DNA from: Ecytonucleospora hepatopenaei
Lineage: Eukaryota; Microsporidia; Enterocytozoonidae
Direction: 5' to 3'
Length of the DNA stretch: 64,000 bases
NCBI GenBank assembly: GCA_026692725.1
Contig: JAPMUG010000001.1
Span: 186,001 to 250,000, forward strand
This document shows, one piece after another, positions 1 to 51,061 of this stretch (position 1 is its first letter; each line of letters starts with the position of its first letter). Made by a program: the position numbers and the translations under genes. A model generated the notes under the pieces. That model was not told the origin of the DNA. It made no database searches and was given only the letters and a program-made list of their open reading frames with translations.

Positions 1-1
1 A

Positions 2-20700: not shown

Positions 20701-21088
20701 AATAAATTAATAGATAATTATAAACATACATAAATTAAAACATAAATAAAAGATTTATTAATTATATTTAATTAGATAATATATATAAAATAATTAAAAT
20801 TTATAATTATATTAATATTACCTTAAAATTATTTATAAATCTTTTTATACCCATACATTATTATATTATATAATTTTTATATAAACAAATTGTATATATT
20901 ATATATTATATTACTATATTATACTATATTATACTTTATACTTTATCTATATTATACTTTATATATTATACTTATACTATATTATATAATTATACTTTAC
21001 TATTTTTTATAAACATATACGTATAAATTATATTTTTATATAAATATTACACAAACATAACATATAAATTTAAATATCATTATTTAAT
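20701..21088. other. AT-only intergenic region
   Basis: Nearly pure A and T between VTC1 and the Hir1-like gene, with tandem tatattatact units at about 20890-21000. No gene was seen. Confidence 0.45.
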
Positions 21089-23602: not shown

Positions 23603-23740
23603 TATATTATATAATAATATTAAATAAATTAATATTATTTAATAAATATATTATTTTAAAGTTAGTATTTTTTAATAAATATATTATTTTAAATTAATAT
23701 TATTTAATTTACTCCTTATAAGTAGTTTAACAATTTAAAA

Positions 23741-24757
23741 ATGTTATTTATTTTTTTAAATTTTATTTGCTGTTCTGGTAATGATTCTAATAAAAGAGAA
23801 TTATGCTCTAAAGGTCCATATACTGACTGTATATTAGCAAAGGGTAATAAAATATTACTTCGTGTAAACATGGAACATATATTACCAGAATATATGGATA
23901 ATCCTAATGATATTACTTATTTTACAATTAATTATTACAAGGATGTAAAGATATTAAAAGATATGTCAGAAGATCCTAATATACATTATAGCTTTAAATG
24001 CAATATTAAACTATCAATACCACATTCCACTGAATTACAGGTTGAACATAATAAAATTAAAGAAAATATAAAAACTTCTAATACTTTAGACATAAAAGTA
24101 AAAAAGGGTAAAATTCAACTTGATACTTTAAATGCATATCCATGTGTTATACTTAATAAGGATATTACTATAAATACGACAAATACTATTAATACTACAA
24201 ACACTATAGGTAATTATAGTATTACATTAAAGAAAAATCACCTGATACAAATACCAATTACAGATTATAAACAAATTATACTGAATGTTAAAAATGATAA
24301 TATTTTTATTGATGAAAGTTTAATAGATATGAAAAAAGATTTTTTACTTTTTATAATCCACTTTAAACTTCTAATAGGTCATTTTTTTATAGAATTACCA
24401 TTAAACTGTAAAGAAGTAGAAAAGAAAGAAATTTTAAAAAATAGCAATGGAATTAATTTGATAAAAAGTGATTTTAAAGATAAATTGGATGCTTATCAAA
24501 AAATTAAATCAGGTTCAATTAATTATGAATTTGAGGCAATTTTACTTGAAAACTTAGTGTATGATGTACCAGAAAGTTTTATAGCATGGGGTATTGAATC
24601 TAAAGCTAAACCAGATGATACACAACCTGATAAAGATTTATCAAGGAAAACATCTAAACTTAAAATAATTATGCTAATATGTATACCTATATTTTGTATA
24701 ATTTCTATATTAATAATTGGTTATATAATATATAAGAAAAAATGTAATATACGTTGA
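23741..24757 (+). CDS. Hypothetical type I membrane protein
   Basis: 338 residues. A signal peptide (LFIFLNFICCSG) is followed by a short Cys-containing segment (CSKGPYTDC), then an Asn/Lys/Ile-rich ectodomain of alternating beta-like character. A Lys-bounded transmembrane segment lies at about 306-331 (IIMLICIPIFCIISILIIGYII), ending in a short basic tail. There is an N-T-rich patch near residue 147. No family is recognised. It is the last apparently intact membrane-protein gene before the subtelomere. The coding strand has ACTCCTTATA upstream. Confidence 0.55.
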   Translation: MLFIFLNFICCSGNDSNKRELCSKGPYTDCILAKGNKILLRVNMEHILPEYMDNPNDITYFTINYYKDVKILKDMSEDPNIHYSFKCNIKLSIPHSTELQVEHNKIKENIKTSNTLDIKVKKGKIQLDTLNAYPCVILNKDITINTTNTINTTNTIGNYSITLKKNHLIQIPITDYKQIILNVKNDNIFIDESLIDMKKDFLLFIIHFKLLIGHFFIELPLNCKEVEKKEILKNSNGINLIKSDFKDKLDAYQKIKSGSINYEFEAILLENLVYDVPESFIAWGIESKAKPDDTQPDKDLSRKTSKLKIIMLICIPIFCIISILIIGYIIYKKKCNIR

Positions 24758-25190
24758 AATAAATAAATAAATAAATAAATTTTTATTTATATGTTATTTA
24801 TTTATATTCCTCATTTTTAAATTTTGTTGTGTATATATTTTTTATTATATGATCTTTACTAATATTGTTATAATTATACAATGTTTTTATTTATAATACA
24901 TAATGTATTATATTGTTAAAAATATAAAAAAATTAAGAACAATATCTAATGTAATTTAATTTATTTATGATCATAACTTAGGTAATATAAACTAACTAAA
25001 TATATTAATGAACTAACTTTATGTATTAAAAAGATATATAGAAGTAATACTTAGACGTATTCTATGTTAAACTATTTTGATTTTGTTTTATTCGATTTAT
25101 TCATTTTTAGTAATTATTTGTTATACTTTAATAAGTTATTATATAAATATCTACCAGTAAAATATATAATAAAAATATTATGGCTGAAAA
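24758..25190. other. AT-rich intergenic region between convergent genes
   Basis: Starts with an aaat/aataaat repeat just after the stop at 24757. Otherwise featureless A/T runs with many stops in all frames. Confidence 0.4.
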
Positions 25191-25790
25191 TCAATCATCA
25201 GAACTGCTATTTTCTCTTTTACGTTTTTTTCGTAAATTATATGAAGTTCTAGTTTCACGTTCCATTGTTGTTGATGTTCCTGGTTCTTCATTGTCTTTTA
25301 ATGGATTTTCTCTAGAAACTTTAATTGCAAGTTCTAATGATTTAAAAATACACAAAGACGAATACTTGCAATTACGAACTAATTCTGGCGGTAGTTCAGA
25401 TTCTGGAACAATTGTTTTTTCTTCATCTTCATAAGGTTTTATTGATATGTATATAGTGTCAGGACCACCAAAATCTTTATCTTTTGGACATATAATTAAA
25501 CATGATCTTCTACATATTTCAGGATTCTTCATCATTTCTAAACACGTGCTTATTTTAATTTTAGAACACCAAAAGCAATCATCAATTACTGTTAATTTAT
25601 TTCCATTATAAATAAACTTGCTATTGACATTATATAAATTACCTATATAACCATCTTCACATGGTTCCTCACTAGAAAATCCTCCCCATATGCTAATAAA
25701 CCCGTCTGATGCACCCCCAAAACGGATAGTAAATCTTTCAATACAAACAGCAAAATTTATAAAAACAGTTGACAATAAAAACATAAACAT
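25191..25790 (-). CDS. Hypothetical secreted Cys-rich protein with a basic, NLS-like C-terminus
   Basis: 199 residues. A signal peptide of about 16 residues (FLLSTVFINFAVC) is followed by a compact domain with about ten Cys residues, several in pairs (DDCFWC, RRSCLIIC), suggesting disulphides. The C-terminal 45 residues are polar and disordered and end in YNLRKKRKRENSSSDD, a classical monopartite nuclear-localisation pattern. There is no membrane span. The coding strand has AACCCTTTTA just before the ATG at 25790, a CCC motif. A secreted protein with a nuclear signal fits a host-nucleus effector, but this is inference only; a basic tail could also bind wall polysaccharide or nucleic acid. Confidence 0.6.
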   Translation of the reverse strand: MFMFLLSTVFINFAVCIERFTIRFGGASDGFISIWGGFSSEEPCEDGYIGNLYNVNSKFIYNGNKLTVIDDCFWCSKIKISTCLEMMKNPEICRRSCLIICPKDKDFGGPDTIYISIKPYEDEEKTIVPESELPPELVRNCKYSSLCIFKSLELAIKVSRENPLKDNEEPGTSTTMERETRTSYNLRKKRKRENSSSDD

Positions 25791-26829
25791 TAAAAGGGTT
25801 ATTAAAAAATTTTAATTTTAATAATAAAACTTTTTTAGTTCTTTTATAAATTTTTAAATGCTTGAATCATGATTATTTTGCTACTGGTCATTGATATTTT
25901 TAATTTAATTTTAAAAATTTTAGTTGAATTAATTAAACAAACATTACATAATAATAAATATAAATTTAATTTTTAATAAAATGTTTTTATTTTTCTTCTC
26001 ATGTATTTTATTTATAAAGGCTGTGATTTTTAGAAGTTTAGTTCACTTATTGTTATGTGATTATGTTAATAGAATATAATTCTTTTTATTTAAATTAAAA
26101 TAATAATTTACAATAAACTTATTTTTTCTCATTGTTTAATATTATTCTATTTTAATTTTATTTAGGCAAAACATGATTATTAAATGCATCAAAAGGTAAT
26201 AAAAATTTTATAAGGTTCATATTTTACCATTACTTTAATATAATAAATACATGTTTTAAAAATTCTTATTTTTTACTGTATATAATTAAATTTAAAATAT
26301 TTTAAATACAATTTTAGGATAGAAACATCTATTTGATTTGTTATAGATAAATATATTTTTACAAAACATAAGTATAAAATCCATTAACAACAATTATTTA
26401 ACATCTTACTTTTTACACATATTTTTAGATTCATCATAAAAAAGAATATTAGAGAATTTCTTTTTATTTTGGTAATACATCTGATAAGATTTAACTTTAT
26501 CCTTTGTTTGTCAAAAAAACGTAAAATAAGATTACATAAACATTTTATTAAGTTTAAATAATCCTTTTAGTTATAAGGAAATATTAATAAATTTCCATAG
26601 AACCTGAAAACCCAACCCAAGAAACAAATCTAAAGTAAAATAATCTTAATAAATAGAATGTTTATGAATATTGTAAAAATAGCTTTTATTGTTTTTAAAA
26701 TATTTAATAAAAGCATATAAAAAAGTGTATTTACAATTACTTTGCAATAATATCAAATTATTAATGTAATATTATAAAACAGAAAAAAATTAAAATACAG
26801 TATGTTTTTTGTATTATAAATTAATTTTA
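25791..26829. other. AT-rich region at the edge of the subtelomere
   Basis: About 1 kb with no convincing gene. A 32-residue ORF at 25981-26079(+) begins like a signal peptide (FLFFFSCILF) and may be the remnant of a secreted-protein gene. The rest is scattered A/T runs. Confidence 0.4.
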
Positions 26830-28056
26830 TTAACATTCTAATTCTTCTTTAACAATATCTATATTAACTTCTTGTTTTATTTTATTTTCATTTATATTAG
26901 TAATATTGCTATTATTTTCTTCCTTAATAAATATTTTGTTATCATCATTATTCTTATTACTTTTTGTTACATTTTTAAGGTTATTCTTATATACATCATT
27001 TACATCTTTCATAAACTTTTTTATTTCATTATCAGTATATGCAATATGTTTTAAGTTATATTTAGCACAAAAAAGTTTACGTTTTACTCGCAAAGTATTT
27101 TTGTTTTTAAATATATTATTTTCATCCCAATCTTTATATATAATAGCTAGTTCATTCTTTGTGACAATATTTGTAACATTATTTGTTACATTATTTTGCG
27201 AAAAATCCATGTCTTCCAATATACAAAAATTTTCTAATTGTATAAAATGTTTTTTAAACCTTATCATTTTGTTATATAAAGTATAATCAATAGAAAATAT
27301 TGCTTTTACATTATCTGTATACATATTTAATAGATTTTGAAATTCATCAATTATAGTAAAAGCTTGAATAATATGTGCAACACTAACATGCATATACATG
27401 TCAGTCAACATCATTTTAAACTTTAACTTTTCATTAAAATCTTTATAGTTTGCTATCATAAATTTATTGTATTTATGTGCAGCTAAAATTAGATTAGTAA
27501 TAGAATTTAGAAAAAAACATTAAAATATAATTTTCTATATTCTAAAAAAGTCATTCTAAGTTTTGTAGTTTTACAAAATTTATATATTGTACCTTCATGG
27601 AAAAAATCATCAATTTTTAAATTAGTATTCATTTTAAGATTATAAAAAGGTATAAGATATTTTTTCAAAAAAAAATAAATGGTTGAGCTTAAAGCTTTTG
27701 TTCCTAATGTAAATTTGGTAAAATCAGGCTTTTCCAAATTTATAAGCATGTTTTTGATAAATATATCATATTCATTGTGTTTTGGGCCAGACCAAACTTT
27801 AGAGAATAAATTATATATAAATAAATCTTCTAAAATTTTTTCATTAAATGTTTTAAATAATTCTTCCATATCCTTAAAATATTCATTATCATTAATATTA
27901 TCTAAAAGTGTTTCTGTTGTGTTGTTTATTTCTTTTTCTACACTATTGTGTAAATGTAAAGTTGTAAGATTGTATTCATTTTCTTTTTTTATAATAATAG
28001 CATTATAAAGAACATTAGCAAAAACAAATAAAATTTAAAAATTTAAAATAAATCAT
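26830..28056 (-). pseudogene. Broken paralogue of the helical protein gene at 38544-39749
   Basis: Read on the - strand from the ATG at 28056 (preceded by AAAAAACCCT), this matches the intact gene at 38544 along its length. It has at least two frame breaks. One is an extra base in the signal-peptide region (about 28017-28030). The other is a T-run of seven instead of five (complement of 27511-27517) that ends the first long frame at 27507. The frames 27869-27507 and 27459-26830 carry KVWSGPKH, LGTKALSSTIYFFLKK and MYMHVSVAHIIQ, nearly identical to the other copy. Both breaks involve T-runs, so sequencing error is possible, but the subtelomeric place and divergence make a decaying copy likely. 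Confidence 0.8.
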
Positions 28057-30342
28057 AGGGTTTTTTATTATAAAGTTTAAAAAGCATAGACTAACATCTA
28101 ATTAGAAAATTAATATTTCTTTAACAATACAATTAATATGTACAAAAGACATAGTAAAGATGTGTATATATTTATAACAATTTATTCATTAGATTATTTA
28201 ACCTTAAAAGTTTAAAAAAATATAATTATTTATATTTTTACATAAAAACAAAATAATAGCATTATTTAGTAAACTTTTAAACATGTTTTTATTATATATC
28301 AATTTATTAGTAATAGAAAAACAATAAAAACTTATTTATTTATTCATAAAAATAGAAATCAATAGATAAAAAAGTAAGTTTATTTTATAACATAGGAAAA
28401 GGATAAGGTAAGTATAAAAAGTAACTAATAAACATAAAATAACAAATACAAGCAAATATGTAAAAATAATTTTTATCACTATATGGTTAAGAAACAAAGA
28501 TATAAACTAAATATAAAAATACGTTTTTATTACTAATACACATGATACTATTAAAATTTTGAATCATTATAAAATGAACCATATAACTTAATGTATAGTA
28601 AAATAGTATCATTTAAATCAATATTATGTAATACACAAAACAATAGTAATATTTAAACAATTATATAATAACTATACTTAATATGATTAATATACATATT
28701 ACAATAAATAAAATAAATATTAAAGATATTATTTAAACATGTTACTAATTAATAAATTATAAAAACTAAAACATTAGAGATAATATCAGGTAATAAATAT
28801 TATAGCATTATAAAAATATAAACATAAATATAGAAGTAATAATAAAGTAAAAAAGATAAAAAAATACATTAGACACATTTATATTATATTATATTATAGT
28901 ATATTATATAATATTATTTGATTAAAATATATATTATATAATACATCAATATATAACATTATTATAAGATAATATAAAGATGTATTAGTAAAATCAAAAG
29001 AATATAATTTAAAATGATATTTAAAATAAATTTAACTTCAATAACACATAATACAATATAAAAGTGTTAATATAAAATTTAGTAGTTTATTGTATAATTA
29101 TTATATAGGTATTGTTGTATATTGATAAAATATTAGATATAAAAAATACTAACATAAACAGTAATAATAGTAATAATACTTAACAATATAGAATATAATA
29201 TTAAAAACATTAAAAATAAAATATAAGGTAAAATGCATTAAACTAACAATATAAAGAAATATTAAATAAAAAATAGAAAATGTTTAAAAGCATATGTAAT
29301 ATATAAAGAAAATAATAAATATAAAAAATATAAAGAAATATTAGCATGTAATAATAAATGACAATAATAACAATAATAACAAGTATTTGTGTTTTATATA
29401 AAAAAGATAAATGATACTACTAGTAAATTATTAAAGATAGAAATATATTAATTATACTCTTGTTTTAGTATTTTATTACTTAATTGTTTTATTACTTAAT
29501 TATTTTATTACTTAATTATTTAGTTACTTTATTATTTTATTATTTTAGTATTTTAGTATTTTATTAATTGTTAATTTTATAAGTTTTAAACATACTAATA
29601 AATGAATCAAATTTTACATATAAGATAAATATTTATTAAAAACAATATATGTAAGGTTATAAATAAATCTTGTGCTATACCTTATAAAAATATTTTATTA
29701 GTAAAATTATAAACATAAAAAACAGTAGTAAAATTATAAGTATATTTAATAGTATAGGTAAAATTTCAAGGGCAAAAAGTAATGTAAACTTTTTAAAAGT
29801 CAAATTTTATTAGTAAAAAGTTACAAAAATAATTTCAATTTTTTAGGCAAAAATATTTTATAAAGCACAATTAAAACAAGAAAAAGTTAAAAAACTAAAT
29901 TAAACATAATTTTATCAAATTATTTAACACCTCTTTTATTAGATAACATGTTTTTTAAATAAAATTGTTTTTTTATTGTTGTATGCCACATCCTGACAAA
30001 ATTTACAAATAATAGGTGTTTAAAATAAACTTGTGTATTTCTAAGTTTTAGCATATTTATGTAAGTACAAGCATTATAACATTCTTTTACATTTAATTAG
30101 TTTGAAAAGTTTATTTAAACTTTACAGCTTAAAAAACAAGTATTAGATAAAGTCATCCGTAATTATTTATTCAGTGATAAGTTTTTAATCAAAATAGAGT
30201 TTATTAATAAGTAGTGTTAAATAAATAAGAACCTTAATTTTGATAGGTTAAAAAATGTTATTTAGTAAATTAAAAAAGGTTTAATAAATAAATCTCTAAT
30301 TTTCAAACTAATATTTATTTTGTCTCCTTTAACATGAAAGTC
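28057..30342. other. Gene-free AT-rich subtelomeric region
   Basis: About 2.3 kb dominated by A and T, with many short near-repeats (tatattatat, aataataac, ttattacttaatt at about 29470-29540) and stops in all frames. I see no RNA gene or coding remnant. Confidence 0.5.
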
Positions 30343-30484
30343 AATAATGTAATAATGTAATAATGTAATAATGTAATAATGTAATAATGTAATAATGTAA
30401 TAATGTAATAATGTAATAATGTAATAATGTAATAATGTAATAATGTAATAATGTAATAATGTAATAATGTAATAATGTAATAAT
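30343..30484. repeat. 8-bp satellite, about 17-18 copies of AATAATGT
   Basis: A regular eight-base unit repeats without visible change across about 142 bases. Any reading frame through it is an artefact of the period. It lies between the degraded helical-protein gene and the aminopeptidase remnant. Confidence 0.9.
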
Positions 30485-30619
30485 TTCTGCGTTGGAAAAT
30501 CCAACAAATTTTTAATTATCATTAAATATATTTTTAAGTTATCATTGATTATTTATTGAAGGAAAATCTTTTGTTTGTTTTTAAATGTGGTTTTTTGTAC
30601 TCTAAATTTTATTTTTAAA

Positions 30620-31345
30620 ATAAAATATGAGCATAATAATGCAGAAACAGAAGATTTATGGGAAGAACTTGATAAATCAAGGGATAATAATGAAATAAAG
30701 ATAAAAGACCTTATTGACAGTTAATTTTCAACTAACAATAAAATGGTAACTAACAATAAAATGGTATAACACAAAAAACAATTCTAATAATAGTTTAAGT
30801 AATAGTGGAAAAGTAGAAAAAATATTATTTGATAAAACAGAAAGAACAATTCATAAATTACTAAACAACTTTATAAGTTTATTTTAAAATATAATTTATT
30901 ATTTTAAATTAAAAGAATATTTTATAAAATTACTTAGTGATAAATACAGTTCTTTAAATTTAAACAATGTTGATGCTTTAAATTTAGTAGCAGATTTTTT
31001 TGAATTTTCAACAACATTATATAGATAAATCAAATAGAATTGTATATAGAAAAACAAGAATAAATAATAAATGTAGTAGAAAAAGAGACAAATTATGAAG
31101 TAATTGAAAATGTATTAATGAATTTGAATTTTTTGAAAAATGCATTTTAAGATAATAATGTTAAACATTTCAAATTACACTTTAAAGATATGCAAAACAA
31201 AATAGTTGAGAATAGATTAAAAAACATAAATTTAATTACTAGTATACAAGATAAAGACATTAAGTGATTTATGTATTGATAAAATAGCAGTAACCATATG
31301 AGTACAGAATAGTATTTTTAAGATAGAGAGTAAATATGTATTGTA
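30620..31345 (+). pseudogene. Degraded fragment of an M1 aminopeptidase gene
   Basis: Translated pieces match the intact aminopeptidase at 41405-44005 in order: YEHNNAETEDLWEELDKSRD, KWYNTKNNSN, GKVEKILFDKTE, VDALNLVADFFEFS, VEKETNYEVIENVLMNLNFL and FKDMQNK...RLKNINL. The pieces are separated by stops, frameshifts and deletions. They correspond roughly to residues 415-690 of the intact protein; the catalytic domain is absent. The fragment points toward the central telomere-like tract, as the intact gene does from the other side. It is a clear relic of a second aminopeptidase gene or of a duplicated subtelomere. Confidence 0.85.
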
Positions 31346-32495
31346 TTATAGTATATAGGAAGAACTATTTAATGTCACTGGTATAAATAATGATTTTTAC
31401 AAAACAAATATATGAATATATATAATGCAGTAGTAGCTAACAATACTAACAAATTTATTATAGTATTACTACTATTATAAAATATTTTGTAATACACAAC
31501 TATATATTAACTACTAAAAACTTTTTATATGTTTTATAAATAAATAGTATAATAACTAAAATTATTAGTGTATATTATATATTAGTAGTTTTAAGATATT
31601 TTATGTTAAAATAATTTGAAAAATAAAATATAATAGAAATAAAAAACACGTAGGTAAAAAGGAAAAGAAAAAAGATGAAATAAAAGTATATATAGAATGC
31701 AATGATATTGAAAATTGAATAGTTTTAGGTAGATGTATTTTTCAATTTTTTGTATTTGTGAGTATACCCTTTAGTAAAAAATATGGTTAATAAAATTAGT
31801 ACTAGTAAATATTTTTTAACCCTAATAGTAAAATAGAATAAAAAAGAATATAAAAGAATAATAGTAGAAATATAATTTAAATGTATTAATATAAGTGTAA
31901 AACATAATATAAATGATAGTAAATAAATTATAAGTATATAAAATGCATTAGTTTAGTATATATTACTAAATAAATTATTATTTTAAGAAATTTAAAAAAA
32001 AATAGAAGAAATATTCTAATAAAATATATAAGTAAAGGTATAAATGATAAGGTATATGTGTATTTAAATAGTATTAATAATTATAAAAAGATACTTTATT
32101 AACTATTTACATGTTTTTAATAAATAAATTATATAAATATATACATTTATTAGAAAATATTATAATATTTGTAAAAAAATAGGAATATTTTAAAAGATAA
32201 TAAAAATAAGAGAAAACAATGAGTGTATTAAATAAAAAAAATATAAAGTAAAAAAAATAAAAAAACTAAAATAAATACTTAAGTATATTTACATATAAAA
32301 AATATAAAACTATTAACAAGTTTATAAACCTAATAATAAAATAAAAATAACAATAAAAAATCAAAAGAAATAAATACAAAAAGTTTAATTTAATTTATTA
32401 GTACTTAAAAAACATTATAATACTATTTTATGAATAGTAAAAGTAAAAACAAAGAAAAGAAAATACGTGAAAACAAAAATTAGATTATGATTAGT
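31346..32495. other. Subtelomeric AT-rich flank, matching the other arm in inverted orientation
   Basis: No gene. Parts of it are the reverse complement of 36635-37740. The best block is 31579-31776 against 37352-37547. Elsewhere the match is looser, with indels. Confidence 0.6.
31579..31776 (+). repeat. Conserved subtelomeric block, left copy
   Basis: It is nearly identical to the reverse complement of about 37352-37547, including gatgtatttttcaatttttt and gtgagtataccctttag. Both copies are uninterrupted and sit at a similar distance from the central tract (about 700-900 bases from the hairpin element). Conservation above the diverged surroundings suggests recent gene conversion or function. 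Confidence 0.8.
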
Positions 32496-32545
32496 AGCGC
32501 GAGAAAACTTGACGGAGTGTAACGAAGTTAAAGTTTTGGAGCGCT
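32496..32545 (+). other. Conserved 50-base hairpin-forming element, left copy
   Basis: The ends can pair: AGCGC with GCGCT, then AAAACTT with AAGTTTT, separated by a GAG/GGA internal loop. The element is richer in G and C than its surroundings. An identical copy lies inverted at 36585-36634. It directly adjoins the 30-bp array on the telomere side. It could be a subtelomeric protein-binding site or the stem of a non-coding RNA; this is inference. Confidence 0.7.
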
Positions 32546-33404
32546 ATTGACTAGATATCTTACCTACGGTAAGCTATTGACTAGATATCTTACCTACGGT
32601 AAGCTATTGACTAGATATCTTACCTACGGTAAGCTATTGACTAGATATCTTACCTACGGTAAGCTATTGACTAGATATCTTACCTACGGTAAGCTATTGA
32701 CTAGATATCTTACCTACGGTAAGCTATTGACTAGATATCTTACCTACGGTAAGCTATTGACTAGATATCTTACCTACGGTAAGCTATTGACTAGATATCT
32801 TACCTACGGTAAGCTATTGACTAGATATCTTACCTACGGTAAGCTATTGACTAGATATCTTACCTACGGTAAGCTATTGACTAGATATCTTACCTACGGT
32901 AAGCTATTGACTAGATATCTTACCTACGGTAAGCTATTGACTAGATATCTTACCTACGGTAAGCTATTGACTAGATATCTTACCTACGGTAAGCTATTGA
33001 CTAGATATCTTACCTACGGTAAGCTATTGACTAGATATCTTACCTACGGTAAGCTATTGACTAGATATCTTACCTACGGTAAGCTATTGACTAGATATCT
33101 TACCTACGGTAAGCTATTGACTAGATATCTTACCTACGGTAAGCTATTGACTAGATATCTTACCTACGGTAAGCTATTGACTAGATATCTTACCTACGGT
33201 AAGCTATTGACTAGATATCTTACCTACGGTAAGCTATTGACTAGATATCTTACCTACGGTAAGCTATTGACTAGATATCTTACCTACGGTAAGCTATTGA
33301 CTAGATATCTTACCTACGGTAAGCTATTGACTAGATATCTTACCTACGGTAAGCTATTGACTAGATATCTTACCTACGGTAAGCTATTGACTAGATATCT
33401 TACC
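32544..33404 (+). repeat. 30-bp tandem array, 28 full copies plus a 21-base partial copy
   Basis: The copies look identical over 840 bases. Each unit begins ctattgactag, contains the palindrome AGATATCT, and ends with CTTACCTACGGTAAG, a six-base stem with a three-base loop. It is open in one frame because 30 is a multiple of three, but there is no sign of selection for a protein. The last copy breaks off after TTACC and passes into TTAG-type repeats. There are no spacers, so this is not CRISPR. Confidence 0.95.
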
Positions 33405-33431
33405 TTACGTTAGTTTATAGTTAGTTAGTTA

Positions 33432-33484
<53 letters not shown>

Positions 33485-33734
33485 AGTTAGTTAGTTAGTT
33501 TAGTTAGTTAGTTAGTTAGTTAGTTTAGTTAGTTAGTTAGTTTAGTTAGTTTAGTTTAGTTAGTTTAGTTTAGTTAGTTAGTTTTTTTAAGTTAGTATTT
33601 TTAGTTTTTAAAGGGTTAGGTTTGAGTTAGTTAGTTTTATTTAGTTTAAGTTTTTTTAGTTAGTTAGTTTTATTTAGGGTTTAGGTATTAGGTAAGTTTT
33701 TAGGTTAGTTAGTTTTGTTAGTGTTAGTTTTAGT
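33405..33734 (+). repeat. Telomere-like (TTAG)n/(TTTAG)n tract reading toward the junction
   Basis: Pure ttag units at about 33418-33590 become degenerate nearer the junction (ttttaagttagtattttt, aaagggttagg). The G-rich strand runs away from the left arm, as expected for a chromosome end. The unit is shorter than the usual TTAGG or TTAGGG. Miscalled bases in a long-read assembly could have shortened it. Confidence 0.8.
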
Positions 33735-33741
33735 TAACTAA
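33728..33741. other. Palindromic junction between opposing telomere-like tracts
   Basis: TTTAGTTAACTAAA is its own reverse complement and marks the exact switch from TTAG-type repeats to CTAA-type repeats. The centre lies between 33734 and 33735. Confidence 0.85.
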
Positions 33742-35865
33742 ATAACTAAACTAACTAACTAAACTAACTAAACTAACTAACTAAACTAACTAACTAAACT
33801 AAACTAACTAACTAAACTAACTAAACTAACTAACTAAACTAACTAACTAAACTAACTAACTAACTAACTAAACTAACTAAACTAACTAACTAAACTAACT
33901 AAACTAACTAACTAACTAACTAAACTAACTAACTAACTAAACTAACTAACTAAACTAACTAAACTAAACTTAACTAACTAAACTAACTAACTAACTAACT
34001 AACTAAACTAAACTAACTAAACTAAACTAACTTAACTAACTAAACTAACTAACTAACTAACTAAACTAACTTAACTAACTAACTAAACTAACTAAACTAA
34101 CTAACTAACTAAACTAACTAAACTAACTAACTAACTAACTAACTAAACTAAACTAACTAACTAAACTAAACTAACTAACTACTAAACTAACTAAACTAAA
34201 CTTACTAACTAACTTAACTAAACTTAACTAACTAACTACTAAACTAACTTAAACTAACTACTAAACTTAACTAACTAACTAACTAACTAACTAAACTAAC
34301 TAACTAACTAAACTAACCTAAACTATAACTAAACTAACTAACTAAACTAACTAAACTAACTACTAACTAACCTAACTAAACTAACTAACTAAACTAACTA
34401 ACTAAACTAAACTAACTAAACTAAACCCCCCCTATACCATCTCACACACACAAAACACCACCTAATAATAATAATCTCTCTCACCATCCCTAATAACCAC
34501 CCCACCCACCCACCCACCCCCACCACCCACCACCCACCCCACCCACCCCACCCACCCCCACCCACCACCCCACCCACCCCACCCACCCCACCCCCACCCA
34601 CCCCACCCACCCCACCCCACCCACCACCCCACCCACCCACCCCCACCCCACCCCACCCACCCACCCCACCCACCCCCCACCCACCCCACCCACACCCCCA
34701 CCCACCACCCACCACCCCACCCACCACCCCACCCACCCACCCACCCCACCACCCACCACCACCCACCCACCACCCCACCCCCCCACCCACCCCACCCCCA
34801 CCACCACCCACCCCACCCACCCACCACCACCCCACCCCCACCCACCCACCCACCCCACCACCCACCCACCCACCACCCCACCCACCCACCCCCACCACCC
34901 ACCCACCCCACCACCCACCCCACCCACCACCCCACCCCACCCACCACCCCCACCACCACCCCCACCACCCACCACCACCCCACCCCCCACCCACCCACCC
35001 CACCCCACCACCCCACCACCCCCACCCACCACACCCACCCACCCCACCCACCACCCCACCCCACCCACCCCCCACCCACCCCCACCCACCCACCCACCCC
35101 ACCCACCCACCCCACCACCCCACCCACACCACCCCACCCACCCACACCACCCCCACCACCCACCCACACCCACACCACACCACCCCACCACCCACCCACC
35201 ACACCACCCACCCACCACACCCCACCCACACCACCCCACCCACCCACCCACCCCACCCCACCCACACACCCACCCACACCACACCCCCACCCAACCACCA
35301 CACACCACACAACCACACACCACCAACCACCCACACCCAACACCAACCACACACACCCACAACCACACCAACACCACCACCCAACACCAACCAACACAAC
35401 CCACCAACAACCACACCACTAACAACACCTAACAACACAACAACCACACACAACCAACAACACAACTACCAACACAACTAACAACACTAACCACCAACAC
35501 ACTAACTACAACCTAACCAAACTACACCTAAACACTAACACACACTAACTACTAACTAAACTAACAACTAAACTAAACTAACCTAACAACTAACTACTAA
35601 CTAAACTAACTAACTAAACTAACTAACTAAAACTAACTAACTAACTAAACTAACTAACTAACTAACTAACACTAACTAAACTAACTAACAACTAAACTAA
35701 CTAACTACTAAACTAACTAACTAACTAACTAACTAACAACTAACTAACTAACTAACTAAACTAACTAACTAAACTAACTAACTAACTAAACTAACTAAAC
35801 TAACTAAACTAACTAACTACTAACTAACTAACTAACTAACTAAACTAAACTAACTAAACTAACCT

Positions 35866-35900
<35 letters not shown>

Positions 35901-35998
35901 ACTAACTAACTAAACTAACTAACTAAACTAACTAAACTAACTAACTAACTAAACTAAACTAACTAACTAACTAAACTAACTAACTAAACTAACTAACT

Positions 35999-36037
<39 letters not shown>

Positions 36038-36099
36038 ACTAACTAACTAACTAAACTAACTAAACTAACTAACTAAACTAACTAACTAACTAACTAACT

Positions 36100-36136
<37 letters not shown>

Positions 36137-36541
36137 ACTAACTAACTAAACCTAACTAACTAACTAACAAACTAAACTAACTAACCTTAACTAACTAACT
36201 AACTTAACTTAACTAACTTAACTAACTAACTAACTTAAACTAACTAACCTAAACTAAACTAACTACTAAACTAAACTAACTAACTACTAACTTAACTAAA
36301 CTAACTAACTAACTAAACTAAACTAACTAAACTAACTAAACTAAACTAACCTAACCTTAACTAAACTTAACTTAACTAACTAACTTAACTAAACTAACTA
36401 AACTAACTTAACAACTAACTAAACTACTAACTAACTAACCTAAACTAACTACTAACTAACTTAACTTACTAAACTAACTAACCCTAACCTAAACTAACTT
36501 AACTAACTAACTAACTACTAACTAACTAACCTAAACTAACT
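33735..36541 (-). repeat. Telomere-like (CTAA)n/(CTAAA)n tract, the C-strand, about 2.8 kb
   Basis: A continuous tract of ctaa and ctaaa units interrupted by an A/C-only core at 34495-35419. The + strand has no G from 33734 to 36548. Read on the - strand these are TTAG/TTTAG repeats running from the right arm outward. The tract ends at 36541, where it joins a truncated copy of the 30-bp unit. Confidence 0.85.
34495..35419. repeat. A/C-only low-complexity core (G/T-only on the other strand)
   Basis: For about 925 bases the + strand has only A and C, mostly cccacccacc units, grading on the right through accaacac to ctaac. The other strand is GGGTGGG-rich and could form G-quadruplexes. The gradual change in unit suggests either mutational drift of a telomere or base-calling decay. 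Long reading frames here on the - strand are artefacts. Confidence 0.8.
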
Positions 36542-36586
36542 ATATCTAGTCAATAGCTTACCGTAGGTAAGATATCTAGTCAATAG
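36542..36586 (-). repeat. Right-arm remnant of the 30-bp array, one and a half copies
   Basis: In reverse complement there is one full unit next to the hairpin element and then 15 bases of a second, ending in CTAGATAT before the telomere-like repeats begin. The break point within the unit differs from that on the left. Confidence 0.9.
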
Positions 36587-36634
36587 CGCTCCAAAACTTT
36601 AACTTCGTTACACTCCGTCAAGTTTTCTCGCGCT
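36585..36634 (-). other. Conserved 50-base hairpin-forming element, right copy
   Basis: Identical in reverse complement to 32496-32545. It sits in the same position relative to the array, on the side away from the telomere-like tract. Confidence 0.75.
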
Positions 36635-37351
36635 ACTAATCATAATCTAATTTTTGTTTTCACGTATTTTCTTTTCTTTGTGAATACTTTTATTACTCGC
36701 AAAAAGGTGTTAAAATGTTTTTTATGTACTATTAACTTAAATTAAACTTTTTGTAATTTTTTCGTTTGTTATTTCTATTGTTTTTATCATTTTATTATTA
36801 GGTTAATAAACTTATTAATAGTTTTATATTTTTTATATGTAAATATACTTAAGTATTAGTTTAGTTTTTTAATTTTTTTTTCTTTATTTCTTTTTTATTT
36901 AATACTCTCATTGTTTTTCTTTTAAATTATATTATCTTTTAAAATATTTTTATTTTTTTATAAATTTTATAATATTTCCCTAATAAATGTATATATTTTT
37001 ATAATTTATTTAATAAAAACATATAAATATTTATTACACCATTTTATTATTACTATTACTACTATTTAAATACATATTAACTTTATCATTCATACTTATA
37101 CTTATATTCTATAAGAATATTTCTTTAATTTTTTCTAAATTTCTTAAAATATGAATTTATTTAATAATAAATTCTAAAATAATGTATTTTTTATTCTTAT
37201 AATTTATTTACTATCATTTATATTAAGTTTTACACTTATAACAATACATTTAAATTATGATTTTACTATTATTTTATTTATATTTTAGTTTTATTCTATT
37301 TTACTATAAGGGTTAAAAAATAAATACTAATAAGTTTACTAATATTTAAAC

Positions 37352-37547
37352 TAAAGGGTATACTCACAAATACAAAAAATTGAAAAATACATCTACCTAA
37401 AACTATTCAATTTTCAATATCATTGCATTCTATATATACTTTTATTTCATCTTTTTTCTTTTCCTTTATTACCTACGTGTTTTTTATTTCTATTATATTT
37501 TATTTTTCAAATTATTTTAACATAAAATATCTTTATACTACTAATAT
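37352..37547 (-). repeat. Conserved subtelomeric block, right copy
   Basis: Near-identical reverse complement of 31579-31776. Confidence 0.8.
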
Positions 37548-37754
37548 ATAATATACACAAATAATTTAATTTATTATACAATTTATTTATAAAACATATA
37601 AAATGTTTTTAGTAGTTAATATATAGTATAGTTGTGTATTCCTTAATAGTTTATAATAGTTAAGTAGTAATACTATTTTAAATTTGTTATTATTGTTAGC
37701 TACTACTAAATTATATATATTAATATTTATTTTAGTTTATATTTATATTTAAAT

Positions 37755-38045
37755 TAGTGTCTTAAGCTGGCTTATGCCATCGAAAATGTAGAGTAGATAT
37801 TTAAAATTAGAAATGTTTTAAACCTTAATTTTTATTTTATTAAACTTTATTACAATGTGACATTCTTATACTAATACATTACCAAAGTGTATACTGATTA
37901 TTTAGACACTCTTGAACAGAAAGAGGCACGTCGACAACAAGCACTTCAAGACCTTCCGCCTACTGTGTAAACAAAAGCGCTACGTAGCAATTCACAGCAA
38001 GAAATTATTTAAATCAAATTCATGAAAGCTCAAAAGGAAGGGATT
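37755..38045 (+). other. GC-richer island with a short coding relic
   Basis: This stretch stands out from the AT-rich flank. At 37887-37970 a frame reads VYTDYLDTLEQKEARRQQAL then QDLPPTV and a stop. Near 37765-37800 another reads KLAYAIENVE and a stop. Codon choice (cgt, cga, ccg, ctg) differs from nearby genes. It is absent from the left arm. It may be the tail of a decayed mobile element or a transferred gene; I cannot name the family. Confidence 0.4.
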
Positions 38046-38543
38046 ATAGCATATACTTATTTTTGTTCCTTAATTATACTATATAATAATAAAAATAGTT
38101 TTATATATTTGTTATTATTTTAAATTTTTACTTTTTATATTAACCTTATCCTTTTCTTATGTTATAAAATAAAATTAGTTTTTTATCTATTGATTTTTAT
38201 TTTTATGAATAACTAAATAAGTTTTTATTGTTCAGTTTTATGGTTAATATTTTTATAAACATTTTCTTCTATTGTTTTCTATTACACTACTAAATTGCTA
38301 TAAAATATAAATGTTGACAAAAATTTTATACATCAATTGCTATTATTTTGTTTTTATGTAAAAATATAAATATTTTTATTTTTTTAAATTTTTAAGGTTG
38401 AATAATATAATTAATAAATTGTTCTAAAAGAATGTTTTTATATAATATGTATTTTCTATACATAGTTAGTGTTATTAAATATATACATTGATTTTCTAAT
38501 TAGATGTTTTTTATACTTTTTTAACTTTACATTAAAAAACCCT

Positions 38544-39749
38544 ATGTTTTATTGTAAATTTTTAAATTTTTTATATTTTTCTAATGTTATTTATAATGCT
38601 ATAATTATAAAAAAAGAAAATGACTTTAATCTTACAAATTCACATTTACATAATACTGTAGAAAAAGAAATAAACAATACAACAGAAACACTTTTAGATA
38701 ATATTAATGATAATGAATATTTAAAAGATATGGAAGAATTATTTAAAAATTATAACAAAGAAGGTTTTTTAGATTCAATTACATACAATTTATTCTCTAA
38801 AGTTTGGTCTGGCCCAAAACATCATGAATATAATATGATTATCAAAAACATTCTTATAAATTTAGAAAAACCTGGCTTTACCAATTTTACATTAGGGTCA
38901 AGAGCTTTAAGCTCAACTATTTATTTTTTTCTGAAAAAAGTTCTTTTGCCTTTTTATAATCTTAAAATGAATAGTAATTTAAACATTAATGATTTTTTCC
39001 ATAAAAGTACTATTACAAGTTTTTGTAAAACTACACGACTTAAAATGACTTTTTTAGATTATAGAAAGTTATATTTTAATGTTTTTCTAAATTCAATTAC
39101 TAATCTAATTTTAGCTGCACATAAATACCACAAATTTATGATAGCAAACTATAAAGATTTTAATGAAAAGTTAAAATTTAAAATGATCGTAACTGACATG
39201 TATATGCATGTTAGTGTTGCACATATTATTCAAGGTTTTACTATTATCGATGAATTTCAAAACCTATTAAATATGTATGAAGATAATGTAAAATCAATAT
39301 TTTCTATTGATTTTAAATTATATAACAAAATGATAAGGTTTAAAAAATATTTTATACAATTAGAAAACTTTTGTATATTGGGAGAAATGAATTTTATACA
39401 AAATAATGTTACAGATATTATTACAAATAATGAACTAGAAAAGAAATATAAAGATTGGGATGAAATAAATAAACTTAAAAACAAATATATTTTACGTGTA
39501 AAGCGTAAACAGTTTTGTGATAAATATAAGTTAAAACATATTGATTGTATTAATTATGAAATAAAAAAGTTTATGAAAGATGTAAATGATGTGTATAAAA
39601 ATAACCTTAAAAATATAACAAAAAACAATGATGATAACAAAATATTTTTAAAAGAAGAAAGTAACAATGATATTACTAATGTAGATGAAAATATATCAAT
39701 AAAACAAGAAGTTGATATAGATATTGTTAAAGAAGAATTAGATTATTAA
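38544..39749 (+). CDS. Hypothetical secreted helical protein, subtelomeric family
   Basis: 401 residues from the ATG at 38544, which directly follows AAAAAACCCT, a CCC promoter motif. The ATG at 38469 would add an implausible extension. The N-terminus (MFYCKFLNFLYFSNVIYN) looks like a signal peptide. The body is helical, with KVWSGPKH at about 85-92, SSTIYFFLKK and MHVSVAHIIQ as the most regular parts. The C-terminus is Lys/Asn/Asp-rich and ends KQEVDIDIVKEELDY. A broken copy lies inverted at 26830-28056. Three genes at 11367-14178 have a similar layout. No known family. The subtelomeric place, secretion signal and duplication suit a parasite variable-gene family (inference). Confidence 0.6.
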   Translation: MFYCKFLNFLYFSNVIYNAIIIKKENDFNLTNSHLHNTVEKEINNTTETLLDNINDNEYLKDMEELFKNYNKEGFLDSITYNLFSKVWSGPKHHEYNMIIKNILINLEKPGFTNFTLGSRALSSTIYFFLKKVLLPFYNLKMNSNLNINDFFHKSTITSFCKTTRLKMTFLDYRKLYFNVFLNSITNLILAAHKYHKFMIANYKDFNEKLKFKMIVTDMYMHVSVAHIIQGFTIIDEFQNLLNMYEDNVKSIFSIDFKLYNKMIRFKKYFIQLENFCILGEMNFIQNNVTDIITNNELEKKYKDWDEINKLKNKYILRVKRKQFCDKYKLKHIDCINYEIKKFMKDVNDVYKNNLKNITKNNDDNKIFLKEESNNDITNVDENISIKQEVDIDIVKEELDY

Positions 39750-40344
39750 TATTTAAATAAGTTTATATTAATTTATTGTACCTTTTACACTGTTAAAATT
39801 GTAAAATAATTAAAAATATAGTTACAATATTTTATGTAATTTTTTATTTAATGTATTATTTTGCTATTTTTATTATAATTTTTTTAAAATCAATTTTATT
39901 TACATGTAAGTAAATTTTAGTTATTTATTTTTTTATATTTTAAACTTCAGTAAGTTTCTGATATAATTAAATAAGGTTAAATTTTTTTAGTTATTATAAG
40001 TATATAAATAAATTTAAGTAATTTTGTGTGTTTTATTACATTGTTTTATTAATCAACTATTTAAAATAAAAAAAATGAATTTTTTATTATTTTTAAATAA
40101 AATTTAAAATGCGTATTCCACAAGTGAAGTTCAAACATAAGATTTTCACATGTGAATCACTTGTTAATGTCTTGTCTTGTTTTAAACAGTTATTGTAAAA
40201 TGTTGCATTTGAATTTCAATTTTTATATGATATAATGATACTAATACTGAATATATGTGTATAAAATGATAATTGTTATTAAAATGATAATTGTTATTAA
40301 AAATAGGTTAGATAAATTTTTAATTTTTAAGTCCCTTTAATTAA
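39750..40344. other. AT-rich intergenic region
   Basis: Includes a direct repeat of aaaatgataattgttatt (two copies at about 40264-40300). No gene was seen. Confidence 0.4.
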
Positions 40345-41198
40345 ATGAAAATGTTTAATTTGTTTTTTATAAATTTGATTAATGTTTCGATCAATAAAAT
40401 AGATATATCGGTTGAATCAGAAGACATAAATAAACATTAAAAACCAGTATACGATGTATTTTATAATCGTAAAATATACATTGGTAATCTTTTAAACATG
40501 AATAACAAAGAAAGTAAAAAATTTAATAAATATTTAAATTATTTAAGATATTTAATTCAAACAACTGACGAACAATACAGTATTGATTTAATTAGAAATA
40601 AAATAAGAAATTTTGAAAAATGCACAAAAAAGAATGTTTTGATGTATATAAGACTATCCATGATCTTAAGGAAAAAGAAAAGGAAAAATTACAAAAAAGA
40701 TTTGTTTGGATGAATAGTTTTTTTGATAGCATTTTAAATGATGATAAAAAGATGAAACAATGTCTCTATTATAAAAGTGATGGAAGTAATAGTAAAGAAA
40801 TAAACACTTATTTAGATTTTCACAAAGAAATGTTTAAAACAATCAACGATAAGTTAAACACCACATACACTAATTATAAAAATGAAACTATTAATTATGA
40901 TATTGGAGTTTTTATGAATACATTTAACAAACCATTAAGCATTCTAAGAAAAATGATTATAAAAAGGTTTCCTGAATGTTCAAAAGAATTCCGATATAAA
41001 ATAAAAGATAAAGAAATAAAAGCAGAAGATCCACCTACTGGTCAACTGCCTTTTATAGATCCAAAGGTTCAAAAGGATGAACACGAAAAAAAGATTAAAA
41101 AATCTACTCTTATTTTGATAATAACGTTTTCTATACTCGGAGGTGCGTTTTTACTTGCATTTCTGTTTTTTCTTATTAAGAAAAAAAATGTTAACTAA
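40345..41198 (+). pseudogene. Broken type I membrane protein gene
   Basis: The ATG at 40345 follows AGTCCCTTTAATTAA, a CCC motif, and begins a signal peptide (KMFNLFFINLINVS). The frame hits a TAA at 40438-40440, stays open in the same frame to 40713, and needs a shift in the A-run at about 40624-40630 to continue as the frame ending at 41198. The C-terminal part has a Lys-rich stalk and a membrane span with LIITFSILGGAFLLAF and KKK, the same FSIL-type span as the proteins at 2874-3770 and 4733-5458. One stop and one frameshift make it a likely pseudogene of that family; sequencing error could explain only part. Confidence 0.65.
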
Positions 41199-41404
41199 CA
41201 AAACATTTAAAATTTATTTATGTTTTACTTATATAATATTTGAGTTATTTTTGGGTATAATAAAATGTCTTTTTAAATTTAATGTATTTTATAATGACAT
41301 TTTAAAATATCAATATGACTTAGTAAAAAAATAATATAATTTAAAAAGTTATACGAAATAAATATTTAAAGTTAAATATTTATTAAATTGTAATAAAGTA
41401 AATA

Positions 41405-44005
41405 TTATATACGATGTAGCTTATTGTAAAACTCTCTTACCTTATTTCTTAATAAATTGGTACTATTTAGATTGTCCTTTACCTTCAATATCACCCTTTC
41501 ATACTTGTTTTTTACCTCATTATCCTTTAATAAATTATTTAAAAATTCTAAAACTTTCTTCTGTACTTTTTCTGTGTAAATGTTAGATAATGCACTTGAT
41601 ATTACACTTCTAAACATTCCTGTATCACCTATAAATTTCTCAAACTCATTAAAATTATCCATCACAAATTCTGCAAATGTGTCTCTAAATGTTTCATTTG
41701 TTCCTAATGAATATGCAAAGTAATGAATATCATGTTTCTTCACAAACTCTGTAAATGGCATCTCATTTTTATTTATTAACTTTTTCAAGTTTAATGACTC
41801 TTTGGTTTTTCCTAAGGCCATAAGTGCTGCCTCTGTTACCCCTGGTAAAATACTTGTTTTGTAAAATTCAACTGTTTTATCAAAATTCTTGTCTACCAGT
41901 GACACAAAATAGTTCTTTCTAAACTCTTGATGCACATCTTTACTTTCTACCTTAAAAATACCATTCTGTACTCCTATGGTTACTGCTAAACTATCAATGC
42001 ATAAATCATTTACTGTTTTCTCCTTGTTTGCTTCTTTACTTAAATTTATGTTTTTTAATCTTTTCTCAATTATTTTGTTTTGCATATCTTTAAAGTAATT
42101 TGAAATGTTTGCATCATCATAAAATGCATTTTTCAAAAAATTCAAATTCATCAACACAGTTTCAATTACTTCATAATTTGTCTCTTTTTCTACTACGCTT
42201 ATTATCTGCGTATAATCAAAACTACCTTTTAACGCAAGTGAAAATTCAAAAAAATCTGCTACTAAATTTAAAACATCCACCTTATCTAATGCATTATATT
42301 TTTCTTTAAGTAATTTTTCAAAATTTTCTTTTGGATACTCAACCCTTACAAATGAACACATTCCATGGTTTAATTTATAAATATCTCCTAGTTTAGGAAT
42401 GGTCATTTCTGTTTTATCAAATAATATTTTTTCTATCTTTTCACCATTACTTGAACTATTACTAACATTATTATTAGAATTATCATTAGTACCATTAGTA
42501 TTTGTGTTATACCATTTTATTGAAAGTGGAATTGGCCATGGTGCATCAAGTTTTTCATATCCTTTTGTAAATCTTTTCTGTGTTAAAATCAATTCATCCT
42601 TGTTTTCAATTACACTAACCATTGGAAACCCATCTCTACTTACCCAACTGTCCATAAGGTCTTTTATCTTTATTTCATTATTATCCCTTGCTTTATCAAG
42701 TTCTTCCCATAAATCTGCTGTTTCTGCATTATTATGCTCATATTTCTTTAAATAGCTTTGTATTCCTTTTTGAAAGGTAACTTCTCCCATCCAATTCTCT
42801 AACATTTTTATAACACTACTTCCCTTATCATAACTTATTGCATCAAATATTTGGTCTATTTCTCCTGGATTTTTTACTTCCACTGCAATTTTGTGTGTGT
42901 TCTCCAAACAATCTGCTGTCATTCCTCCCTCTATGTCTGATGATGCAAAATTAGTCACTTCATTCCAATCCACCAAATGAGGATGATCTTTGCTTAATTT
43001 ATACAAAGCCTTTGATGCTGCCCATGTTGCAAATCCTTCATTGAGCCATAAGTCATTCCACCACCTCATGGTCACCAAATTACCAAACCACATGTGTGCT
43101 AACTCGTGACATACTGTGTTTGCTATAATCTTCTTCGACCTTATGAAAGAATCGTCTTTTGAAAATAACAATGAAGTTTTTCTAAAAGTTATCAACCCCC
43201 AATTTTCCATTGCTCCTGATGCAAATGATGGAATTGAAACTAAATCTGCCTTTGATAATGGATATTTTATACCAAAATACTTTTCAAAATATTTAAGACA
43301 ATTGTATGCTACTTCTAATGAATATTCTGCCCAATCCAATTCTTCTTCTGTTGCAAACACCCTTACAACAATTCCTTCTTTTTTCAACTCACGGGCCTTT
43401 AATTGTCCTACTACCCATGCAACAATGTATGTTGACATTTTTGGTGTTTCCTCAAATGTATATGTTTTTCTACCATTTTCTTCTGTTATGTTTTTTGCTT
43501 CACCATTACCTAATGCCATATACTCGCTTTCACAATTTATTTTAACATTAAAAGTTGCCTTCAAATCAGGTTGGTCAAAACATGGAAATGCCTTTCTTGC
43601 ATCTGTTGGTTCAAATTGGGTTGAAAATAAAAAATTGCCATTTGCATCTGCTTTTTTGTAAAAACCATCTAAATTACCATATCCATTAGATTTATACTTT
43701 ATTTCCAAAGTAAACTTTTCATTTGAATTTATTTCCTTTTTGTCTTCCACTGTAATTATTACAAAATCCTCGCTTTTTTCTTTTTCTTCTGAATATTTAA
43801 AATTGCAATTGTATGTTGAATTACTTGCTTTTACTTTGATTTCCTCAATTTCTAAGTTTTTTGCAATGTTAATTTCAAAACTTGTAATTTTCTTTATTGC
43901 TGTGCACAATATCTTTACTACACCTGTAAAAAAGTCATTGTTAATTGTCAAAAATAAATCATAATTAGAAGGTACTACTGTACCTGATAAATTTACACGT
44001 GACAT
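41405..44005 (-). CDS. M1 zinc aminopeptidase
   Basis: 866 residues, the usual length for cytosolic M1 enzymes of the puromycin-sensitive/Aap1 type. It has the substrate motif GAMENWG near residue 262, the zinc site HELAHMWFGN near 299 followed by the second Glu in WLNEGFA, and an ERAP1-like C-terminal helical domain. An Asn/Ser-rich insert lies at about 505-525. There is no signal peptide, so it is probably cytosolic. It removes N-terminal residues from peptides. TTTAACCCTTAT precedes the ATG at 44005, a textbook CCC motif. A relic of a second copy is at 30620-31345. Confidence 0.95.
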   Translation of the reverse strand: MSRVNLSGTVVPSNYDLFLTINNDFFTGVVKILCTAIKKITSFEINIAKNLEIEEIKVKASNSTYNCNFKYSEEKEKSEDFVIITVEDKKEINSNEKFTLEIKYKSNGYGNLDGFYKKADANGNFLFSTQFEPTDARKAFPCFDQPDLKATFNVKINCESEYMALGNGEAKNITEENGRKTYTFEETPKMSTYIVAWVVGQLKARELKKEGIVVRVFATEEELDWAEYSLEVAYNCLKYFEKYFGIKYPLSKADLVSIPSFASGAMENWGLITFRKTSLLFSKDDSFIRSKKIIANTVCHELAHMWFGNLVTMRWWNDLWLNEGFATWAASKALYKLSKDHPHLVDWNEVTNFASSDIEGGMTADCLENTHKIAVEVKNPGEIDQIFDAISYDKGSSVIKMLENWMGEVTFQKGIQSYLKKYEHNNAETADLWEELDKARDNNEIKIKDLMDSWVSRDGFPMVSVIENKDELILTQKRFTKGYEKLDAPWPIPLSIKWYNTNTNGTNDNSNNNVSNSSSNGEKIEKILFDKTEMTIPKLGDIYKLNHGMCSFVRVEYPKENFEKLLKEKYNALDKVDVLNLVADFFEFSLALKGSFDYTQIISVVEKETNYEVIETVLMNLNFLKNAFYDDANISNYFKDMQNKIIEKRLKNINLSKEANKEKTVNDLCIDSLAVTIGVQNGIFKVESKDVHQEFRKNYFVSLVDKNFDKTVEFYKTSILPGVTEAALMALGKTKESLNLKKLINKNEMPFTEFVKKHDIHYFAYSLGTNETFRDTFAEFVMDNFNEFEKFIGDTGMFRSVISSALSNIYTEKVQKKVLEFLNNLLKDNEVKNKYERVILKVKDNLNSTNLLRNKVREFYNKLHRI

Positions 44006-44591
44006 ATAAGGGTTAAAAAAAGTATATTTTTAACAAACAATTTTAAGATGGACACTATTTAGTTTTTTTTATTTTTTTAAATTAATTCTTTTAATATTTT
44101 AGATTAAATAAATGATTTTATTTTTTTTAATATTATTTTAATATACTAAATACACTGTAATGTTATGTTACTTGTTGCAATAATTTTTTAAAATTATTTT
44201 TATTTTTTATTTAAATATTATAAAAAACATTTTATTAGTCTTAAAATTTATTATTAAAGGTTAACAAAAATGTTTTAAATGTAAATTGTTAGGCTTTGTA
44301 GTTTTATGAGTGTAAAATAGTTTACATTTATTAAGTTATGACTAAAAATAGTTATAAATATAAAGTTTTGAAAAATAAAATTTTAAATTTTACAAAAATA
44401 TTAACCCTCCATTCTTGTAATATTAATTGTTTTTACAATAATTTGTTTTCTTTAATTTTGTTTAAGTAAGATTTTTTTAACTACAATAGTTTATATTGTA
44501 ATATTTTTTATAAACTAATAAAATCAATTAATAAGAGTATTTTATTTGTAATTTTATTTTACTTTATTATTTATAAAATTACTATTTTATT
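44006..44591. other. AT-rich spacer between divergent genes
   Basis: It holds the CCC motif of the aminopeptidase gene at 44010-44012 and otherwise A/T runs; a CCTCC is at about 44405. No gene was seen. Confidence 0.5.
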
Positions 44592-46007: not shown

Positions 46008-46194
46008 TTTTAAATAGTTACTTTTTACTGCTTTAGTTAATAATTAAACTTATTAGATATTTTTTAGATAGCTAATCTAAATGTTTTAAATCAATCAATA
46101 TCTTTATTTGTATTGGTAAATAGCTTTATTTAAACTAGTTAAATAGAAAAATGTTTTAAAATTATAAGTTAGTTTTATTAATAAAAATTAAAGA

Positions 46195-50994: not shown

Positions 50995-51061
50995 ATTTTC
51001 ATCTTATAAAAAATACATATTAAATTATTTTAAGATTTTAATATTATGACAAAAACTGTTA

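Follow-up and report, generated by a model that had tools for sequence, protein, structure and literature searches.

Two chromosome ends joined head to head in an Ecytonucleospora hepatopenaei contig, very probably by the assembler

Introduction

Head-to-head joining of telomeres is exemplified by human 2q13, the site of an ancestral fusion. Ecytonucleospora hepatopenaei, the organism studied here, is a parasite of shrimp. It belongs to the clade Enterocytozoonida, in which TTAG telomeres are described, in the accessible parts of the two reports, for Microsporidia sp. MB, a species with 13 chromosomes (PMC13174016), and for Glugoides intestinalis (PMC12449221). Two sources of error are also relevant to telomeres in long-read assemblies. 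Foldback and chimeric long reads are a known artefact that can tangle assembly graphs, according to the available portion of one study (PMC12870357). Nanopore base-callers also miscall telomere repeats; the substitutions named in the available text are TTAGGG to TTAAAA and CCCTAA to CTTCTT or CCCTGG, with CTTGGG in C. elegans (PMC9414165).

Here we analyse a window of 64,000 nucleotides, by which we mean the whole stretch from 186001 to 250000 of contig C5, in an assembly of 3.09 Mb and 13 contigs (C1 to C13). Two chromosome ends meet head to head within it. A first-pass annotation had left two readings side by side, a real fusion and a join made by the assembler. Our results favour the latter: very probably, two separate chromosomes with normal telomeres were joined during assembly. 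Fusion is not supported, given the recurrence of the pattern elsewhere, the decay of the repeat at the join, the noise-like tracts and the versions of both arms found at contig ends.

Results

Layout of the head-to-head site

From left to right, the site comprises a hairpin element, a 30-bp array of 28.8 copies, (TTAG)n, a strand switch at 33735/33736, (CTAA)n, an array remnant of 1.5 copies and the hairpin in inverted orientation (Table 1). This order, including a palindrome at the switch, had been proposed in the first-pass annotation, and all of its elements were located in the sequence. The right-hand tract had been described throughout as (CTAA)n, which is correct for its outer and inner parts and wrong for the CCCA-type tract between them, which had been overlooked. 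The inverted telomere arrays meet at a single point, and the layout is present far beyond chance. At the switch lies a 14-bp palindrome, TTTAGTTAACTAAA, the longest exact palindrome centred within 33650-33800; its 7-bp arms are near-automatic because TTAG is joined to CTAA. There are no Ns at the junction and no gap in the sequence, which rules out a scaffold join with a gap.

Table 1. Features of the window, in window coordinates
Feature	Position	Strand	Basis
Left chromosome core	1..20730 (C5 186001-206730)	.	sampled stretches 5500-9500, 17400-21000
Left subtelomere, telomere on right side	20731..32495	+	matches to other contig ends
Hairpin element, left arm	32496..32542	+	107-bp query matches; DNA fold
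30-bp telomere-associated array, 28.8 copies	32543..33405	+	Tandem Repeats Finder, 100% matches
Left telomere tract (TTAG)n; clean to ~33583, then degenerate	33418..33735	+	canonical repeat fraction
Palindrome at strand switch	33729..33742	.	7-bp exact arms
Right telomere, outer part (CTAA)n	33736..34424	-	
C-rich low-complexity tract, CCCA-type	34425..35540	.	sequence composition, autocorrelation
Right telomere, inner part (CTAA)n	35541..36541	-	
Array remnant, right arm: 1 full unit + 16 bases	36542..36587	-	
Hairpin element, right arm	36588..36634	-	93/107 query bases at 100%
Right subtelomere, telomere on left side	36635..46063	-	near-exact match to C2 left end
Right chromosome core	46064..64000	.	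46064-50000 single copy

A uniform structure at chromosome ends

A 107-bp query spanning the hairpin and two array units was found at 24 places or more, and matched at 100% in 22 of the 24. The exceptions to a full match at 100% are the right end of C2 (97%) and the right arm of the present site, where 93 bases only are covered. Twenty-one of the places lie at or near contig ends, among them C1 left, which has further sequence outside, and C4 right, which has no telomere; the other three lie at two internal sites of C5. A TTAG telomere, as in other Enterocytozoonida, is present on 20 of 25 contig ends examined. The ends without TTAG are C3 left, C3 right, C4 right, C8 right and C12 left, with C4 left uncounted.

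The hairpin folds as DNA at -9.2 kcal/mol (32490-32550; z -3.27), a value that 2 of 200 shuffles equal, and the 30-bp array holds an inner inverted repeat, TTACC-TAC-GGTAA. Across 24 rows, 47 of the first 50 columns from the hairpin are invariant, as are 46 of the next 50 inward, and most further blocks are less constant, in a profile blurred inward by the shorter rows of C11 left, C11 right and C13 right. The structure shared by the 24 places, with its TTAG telomere, 30-bp array and near-invariant hairpin, looks real, and the hairpin and array possibly form a telomere-associated element with a putative role in replication or protein binding. Where TTAG takes over from the array within the 30-bp unit varies from end to end, with TTA or CTA a frequent position, a pattern that would fit new telomere addition inside the array. 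At C7 left, C9 left and C12 right, the border and the next bases are identical, as if these ends had been copied whole; C11 left is nearly identical to them.

Two arms leading to different chromosomes

The first-pass annotation had called the arms diverged and had argued that the site was not a simple foldback of one molecule, and both points hold. Of the longest 25 of 72 inverted-repeat pairs, 15 link left-arm and right-arm sequence outside the telomere, and the paired sequences are 74-98% alike. The outer parts of the window were sampled in three stretches, with queries of 3.6-4.0 kb that recovered their own positions. The left stretches, 5500-9500 and 17400-21000, gave besides themselves only matches of 71-85% over less than 400 bp, and the right stretch, 46064-50000, is single copy in the assembly at E values up to 1e-20. 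In these stretches, the outer sequences are thus single copy at high identity and unlike each other, and differing chromosome cores flank the junction. A simple foldback of one arm is ruled out, since the two arms fall into separate subtelomere groups and continue into different cores.

Both subtelomeres have close relatives at contig ends. Over 20731-30000, the left subtelomere and the right end of C9 agree at 99%, and over the final 2.2 kb of the arm at 96.3%. Parts of C4 right, C5 right, C6 left, C10 right, C11 right and C13 left, together with part of the second junction on C5, are 98.5-100% identical to this subtelomere. Expressed by length, the left arm matches several contig ends (C5, C6, C9, C10, C11 right and C13 left) at 99-100% over 1.8-9.3 kb. 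Among the matches listed, the left subtelomere is closest to C9 right, C6, C13 left, C10 right, C11 right, C4 right and C5 right, and the right subtelomere to C2 left, C9 left, C7 left, C11 left and C12 right; further copies may exist, as the self match is missing from these long-query searches.

The right arm differs from the left end of C2 by no mismatch over 36542-40954 (4413 bp) and by one over 42736-46063 (3328 bp). Window positions 36542-46063 and C2 positions 5063-13262 are a terminal block of 9.5 kb that includes a complete poly(A) polymerase gene and is virtually identical on both contigs, apart from one inner stretch for which C2 has CCCA sequence; the two contigs cease to match at window position 46063 (C2 13262). 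The shared block may be a real terminal duplication or a misassembly. The left end of C2 may also be a misassembled second copy of the right arm, in which case the right arm, too, would be a free end. If the arm copies are real, they would have been made by exchange running to the chromosome end, which would fit arms that were free until very recently.

Strand switches elsewhere in the assembly

Four head-to-head switches from TTAG to CTAA were seen: the present one, a second on C5 at ~432.94 kb, and one each at the left ends of C13 and C2. The last two carry only 0.5 and 1.5 kb of inverted telomere beyond the switch and nothing else, so that a switch without a partner chromosome occurs at 2 of 20 telomere-bearing contig ends. 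No inverted tract is present at the other 18, the outer part of C1 left being partly unreadable. Fusion does not explain switches at contig ends that lack a second chromosome, and read or assembly errors do.

At the second C5 site, the left arm is a standard end with a ~1-kb GGT-type tract in its telomere. On the right arm, neither hairpin nor array is present, and CTAA directly adjoins sequence that is found in part (1148 bp, 97%) in C1 as well. Pieces related to the sequence beside this CTAA, from C5 433882 onward, are scattered on C1, C5, C7, C9, C10, C12 and C13, a dispersal like that of a mobile element.

Decay of the repeat at the switches

For each 100 bp, we measured what share of the bases falls in tandem units of TTAG or TTTAG (the canonical fraction), with the switch points of C5 ~432.94 kb, C13 left and C2 left placed by eye. 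Over the last three 100-bp steps of the left telomere, the fraction falls from 1.00 to 0.54 and 0.21. In the 100 bp before the switch it is 0.21 here, 0.07 at C5 ~432.94 kb, 0.38 at C13 left and 0.35 at C2 left; in the 100 bp after, it is 0.90 here and 0.54, 0.63 and 0.52 at the other three. The base line, from 16 contig ends, has 1 of 283 windows below 0.40, namely the first window after an array, and past the first 400 bp it has 1 of 219 windows below 0.50. Four ends do not enter it: C13 left and C2 left, because they contain switches; C2 right, whose GGT tract brings 10 of 31 windows under 0.40; and C1 left, where 2 of 45 windows are that low as the sequence passes into noise on its outer side. 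The junction is thus less accurate than its surroundings just before the switch, though not after it, and is not the clean junction that a fusion would leave. The flaws at the present switch are long T runs and GGG. A dip in G+C, such as a blend of TTAG and CTAA would give, is seen at the three other switches and not here.

Noise-like tracts within the telomeres

The C-rich tract of the right telomere (~1.1 kb) has an abrupt outer edge with a short non-telomeric stretch, and a gradual inner edge at which it grades into CTAA over ~260 bp. Its positions 34500-35280 consist of 590 C and 191 A, with no other base. The autocorrelation of the tract peaks at lag 4 (0.70), a weak four-base period as in CTAA and one that miscalled telomere would show. 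In the GGT tract of the second junction, lag 7 gives the highest value (0.71) and lag 4 the next (0.68); the four-base period is not exactly kept there. A 19-base CCCA word occurs at 20 places on three contigs: both ends of C2, C4, both C5 junctions and C2 9476-9713. As the word is near-symmetrical, and its reversed control gives 21 places, the places are informative and the count is no test.

The last of these places falls within 459 bp of only C and A, which in C2 replace window positions 40955-42735 (1781 bp), where a spacer separates the end of one gene from part of an aminopeptidase gene. Because a similar tract thus interrupts genic sequence, the CCCA tract is likelier to be noise than a variant telomere. 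A true variant telomere repeat is the less likely reading given the interrupted gene copies in C2 and the grading into CTAA here, and we infer that the CCCA/GGGT tracts are miscalled or noisy sequence. Elsewhere, kilobases of A/C-rich sequence unlike the genome lie outside the telomere of C1 left, and the readable part of C4 (44 of 62 kb examined) comprises GGT-type and TTAG sequence with a 2.3-kb subtelomere piece at its right end. Both C4 and the left end of C1 look like noise kept in the assembly.

Telomere lengths and chromosome-size pieces

The left telomere at the junction measures 332 bp from the last array unit, the shortest measured (811-2774 bp at 16 contig ends), and the right telomere 2833 bp when the C-rich tract is counted. 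If C5 (811 kb) is cut at 219.7 and 432.9 kb, the pieces are 220, 213 and 379 kb long and resemble ten contigs of 121-367 kb; C3 (88 kb) and C4 (62 kb) are smaller. After the cuts there are 13 chromosome-size pieces (C1, C2, three from C5, and C6-C13) besides C3 and C4. Only one end of C8 and one of C12 bear a telomere, and C3 has none. The 13 pieces equal in number the chromosomes of Microsporidia sp. MB, a match that is suggestive only and may be coincidence. A literature search, in which subscription journals are sparsely covered, found no published long-read karyotype of E. hepatopenaei.

Genes in the window

By Pfam scan, six of eight open reading frames tested match families that include MCM, CCT chaperonin, M1 peptidase and poly(A) polymerase. 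A right-arm subtelomeric gene matches four E. hepatopenaei proteins at 55-77% identity. Among named relatives, those closest to the CCT-beta gene are from Nucleospora, Enterospora and Hepatospora (49-56%); the matches listed include none from E. hepatopenaei, perhaps since that protein shares a 90% cluster with the window's own. Near the left subtelomere, 17490-19355 encodes a 621-aa protein that combines a chitinase class I (Glyco_hydro_19) domain with a long stretch of low complexity. At the curators' scores, Rfam found two tRNAs only in the window.

Discussion

Each arm of the site is a normal chromosome end, with subtelomere, hairpin, 30-bp array and TTAG telomere. A join by the assembler is favoured because the same switch occurs four times, twice at contig ends without a partner chromosome; because the repeat decays at each switch; because noise-like tracts sit in the same telomere; and because near-identical versions of both arms are found at contig ends. 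In such a join, reads leaving on the G-strand (TTAG) would have been bridged to reads entering on the C-strand (CTAA), either through chimeric or foldback reads or by a forced overlap of low-complexity telomere sequence, and the consensus at the join would be a low-quality blend. The sequencing platform we infer from the error pattern.

Some observations run against this account and towards a genuine fusion, in which two chromosomes of the sequenced strain were recently joined end to end; we nonetheless consider this unlikely. The head-to-head layout of two different arms is complete, the junction has no N, the CTAA side is clean at once (0.90 vs 0.52-0.63) and the G+C dip is absent; the shortest left telomere and a right array cut to 1.5 units would also be expected of eroded ends fused in the cell. 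However, such a fusion would be needed twice on one contig, beside two look-alikes at contig ends, the right telomere tract of 2.8 kb is not eroded, and decayed repeat and noise-like sequence mark the join. It is improbable to the same degree that two such fusions have recently given the strain a real 811-kb chromosome, in which the subtelomeres remain near-identical to free ends. If true, this would mean that chromosomes have recently fused in a microsporidium and that its chromosome number is still changing.

An ancestral fusion fixed in the lineage, as at human 2q13, would share the head-to-head arrays with subtelomeric flanks, yet it is scarcely credible because neither the telomere repeats, which are long on both sides, nor the subtelomeres have decayed; both arms are near-identical to contig ends, and an old internal site would have drifted. 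Somewhat less far-fetched, and still very improbable, is that telomeres are closed as hairpins in the cell and read through by polymerase or pore as TTAG and then CTAA. The left ends of C13 and C2, where the switch has nothing beyond it, are what such closure would give. One closed end cannot give the differing arms of the present junction, however; 18 of 20 telomere-bearing contig ends lack an inverted tract, and foldback reads are a known artefact, as the accessible text describes (PMC12870357).

Taken as an assembler join, the site calls for the assembly to be split at two places before claims on karyotype, synteny or chromosome number are made, and the CCCA/GGGT tracts should not be taken for variant telomeres.

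Compared with known systems, the site resembles human 2q13 in that inverted telomere arrays meet at one point with subtelomeric flanks. Unlike 2q13, it has largely undecayed repeats on both sides, arms with near matches at contig ends and a degraded join, and its pattern turns up again where contigs end. With the described long-read artefacts it shares joins in which a strand continues into its opposite strand or into a different chromosome; in the accessible part of that study, reads are compared with a reference, whereas the present case is known from the assembled consensus (PMC12870357). As in the reported base-calling errors, telomere repeats appear to be replaced by other repeats beside true telomere repeats, although CTAA to CCCA is not among the substitutions named in the available text, and here again it is a consensus that is compared (PMC9414165). 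The 4-mer TTAG at chromosome ends is shared with Microsporidia sp. MB (PMC13174016) and Glugoides intestinalis (PMC12449221). Microsporidia sp. MB, in the available description, has LINE repeats beside its telomeres and no subtelomeres (PMC13174016), whereas the ends of E. hepatopenaei carry a uniform hairpin and 30-bp array.
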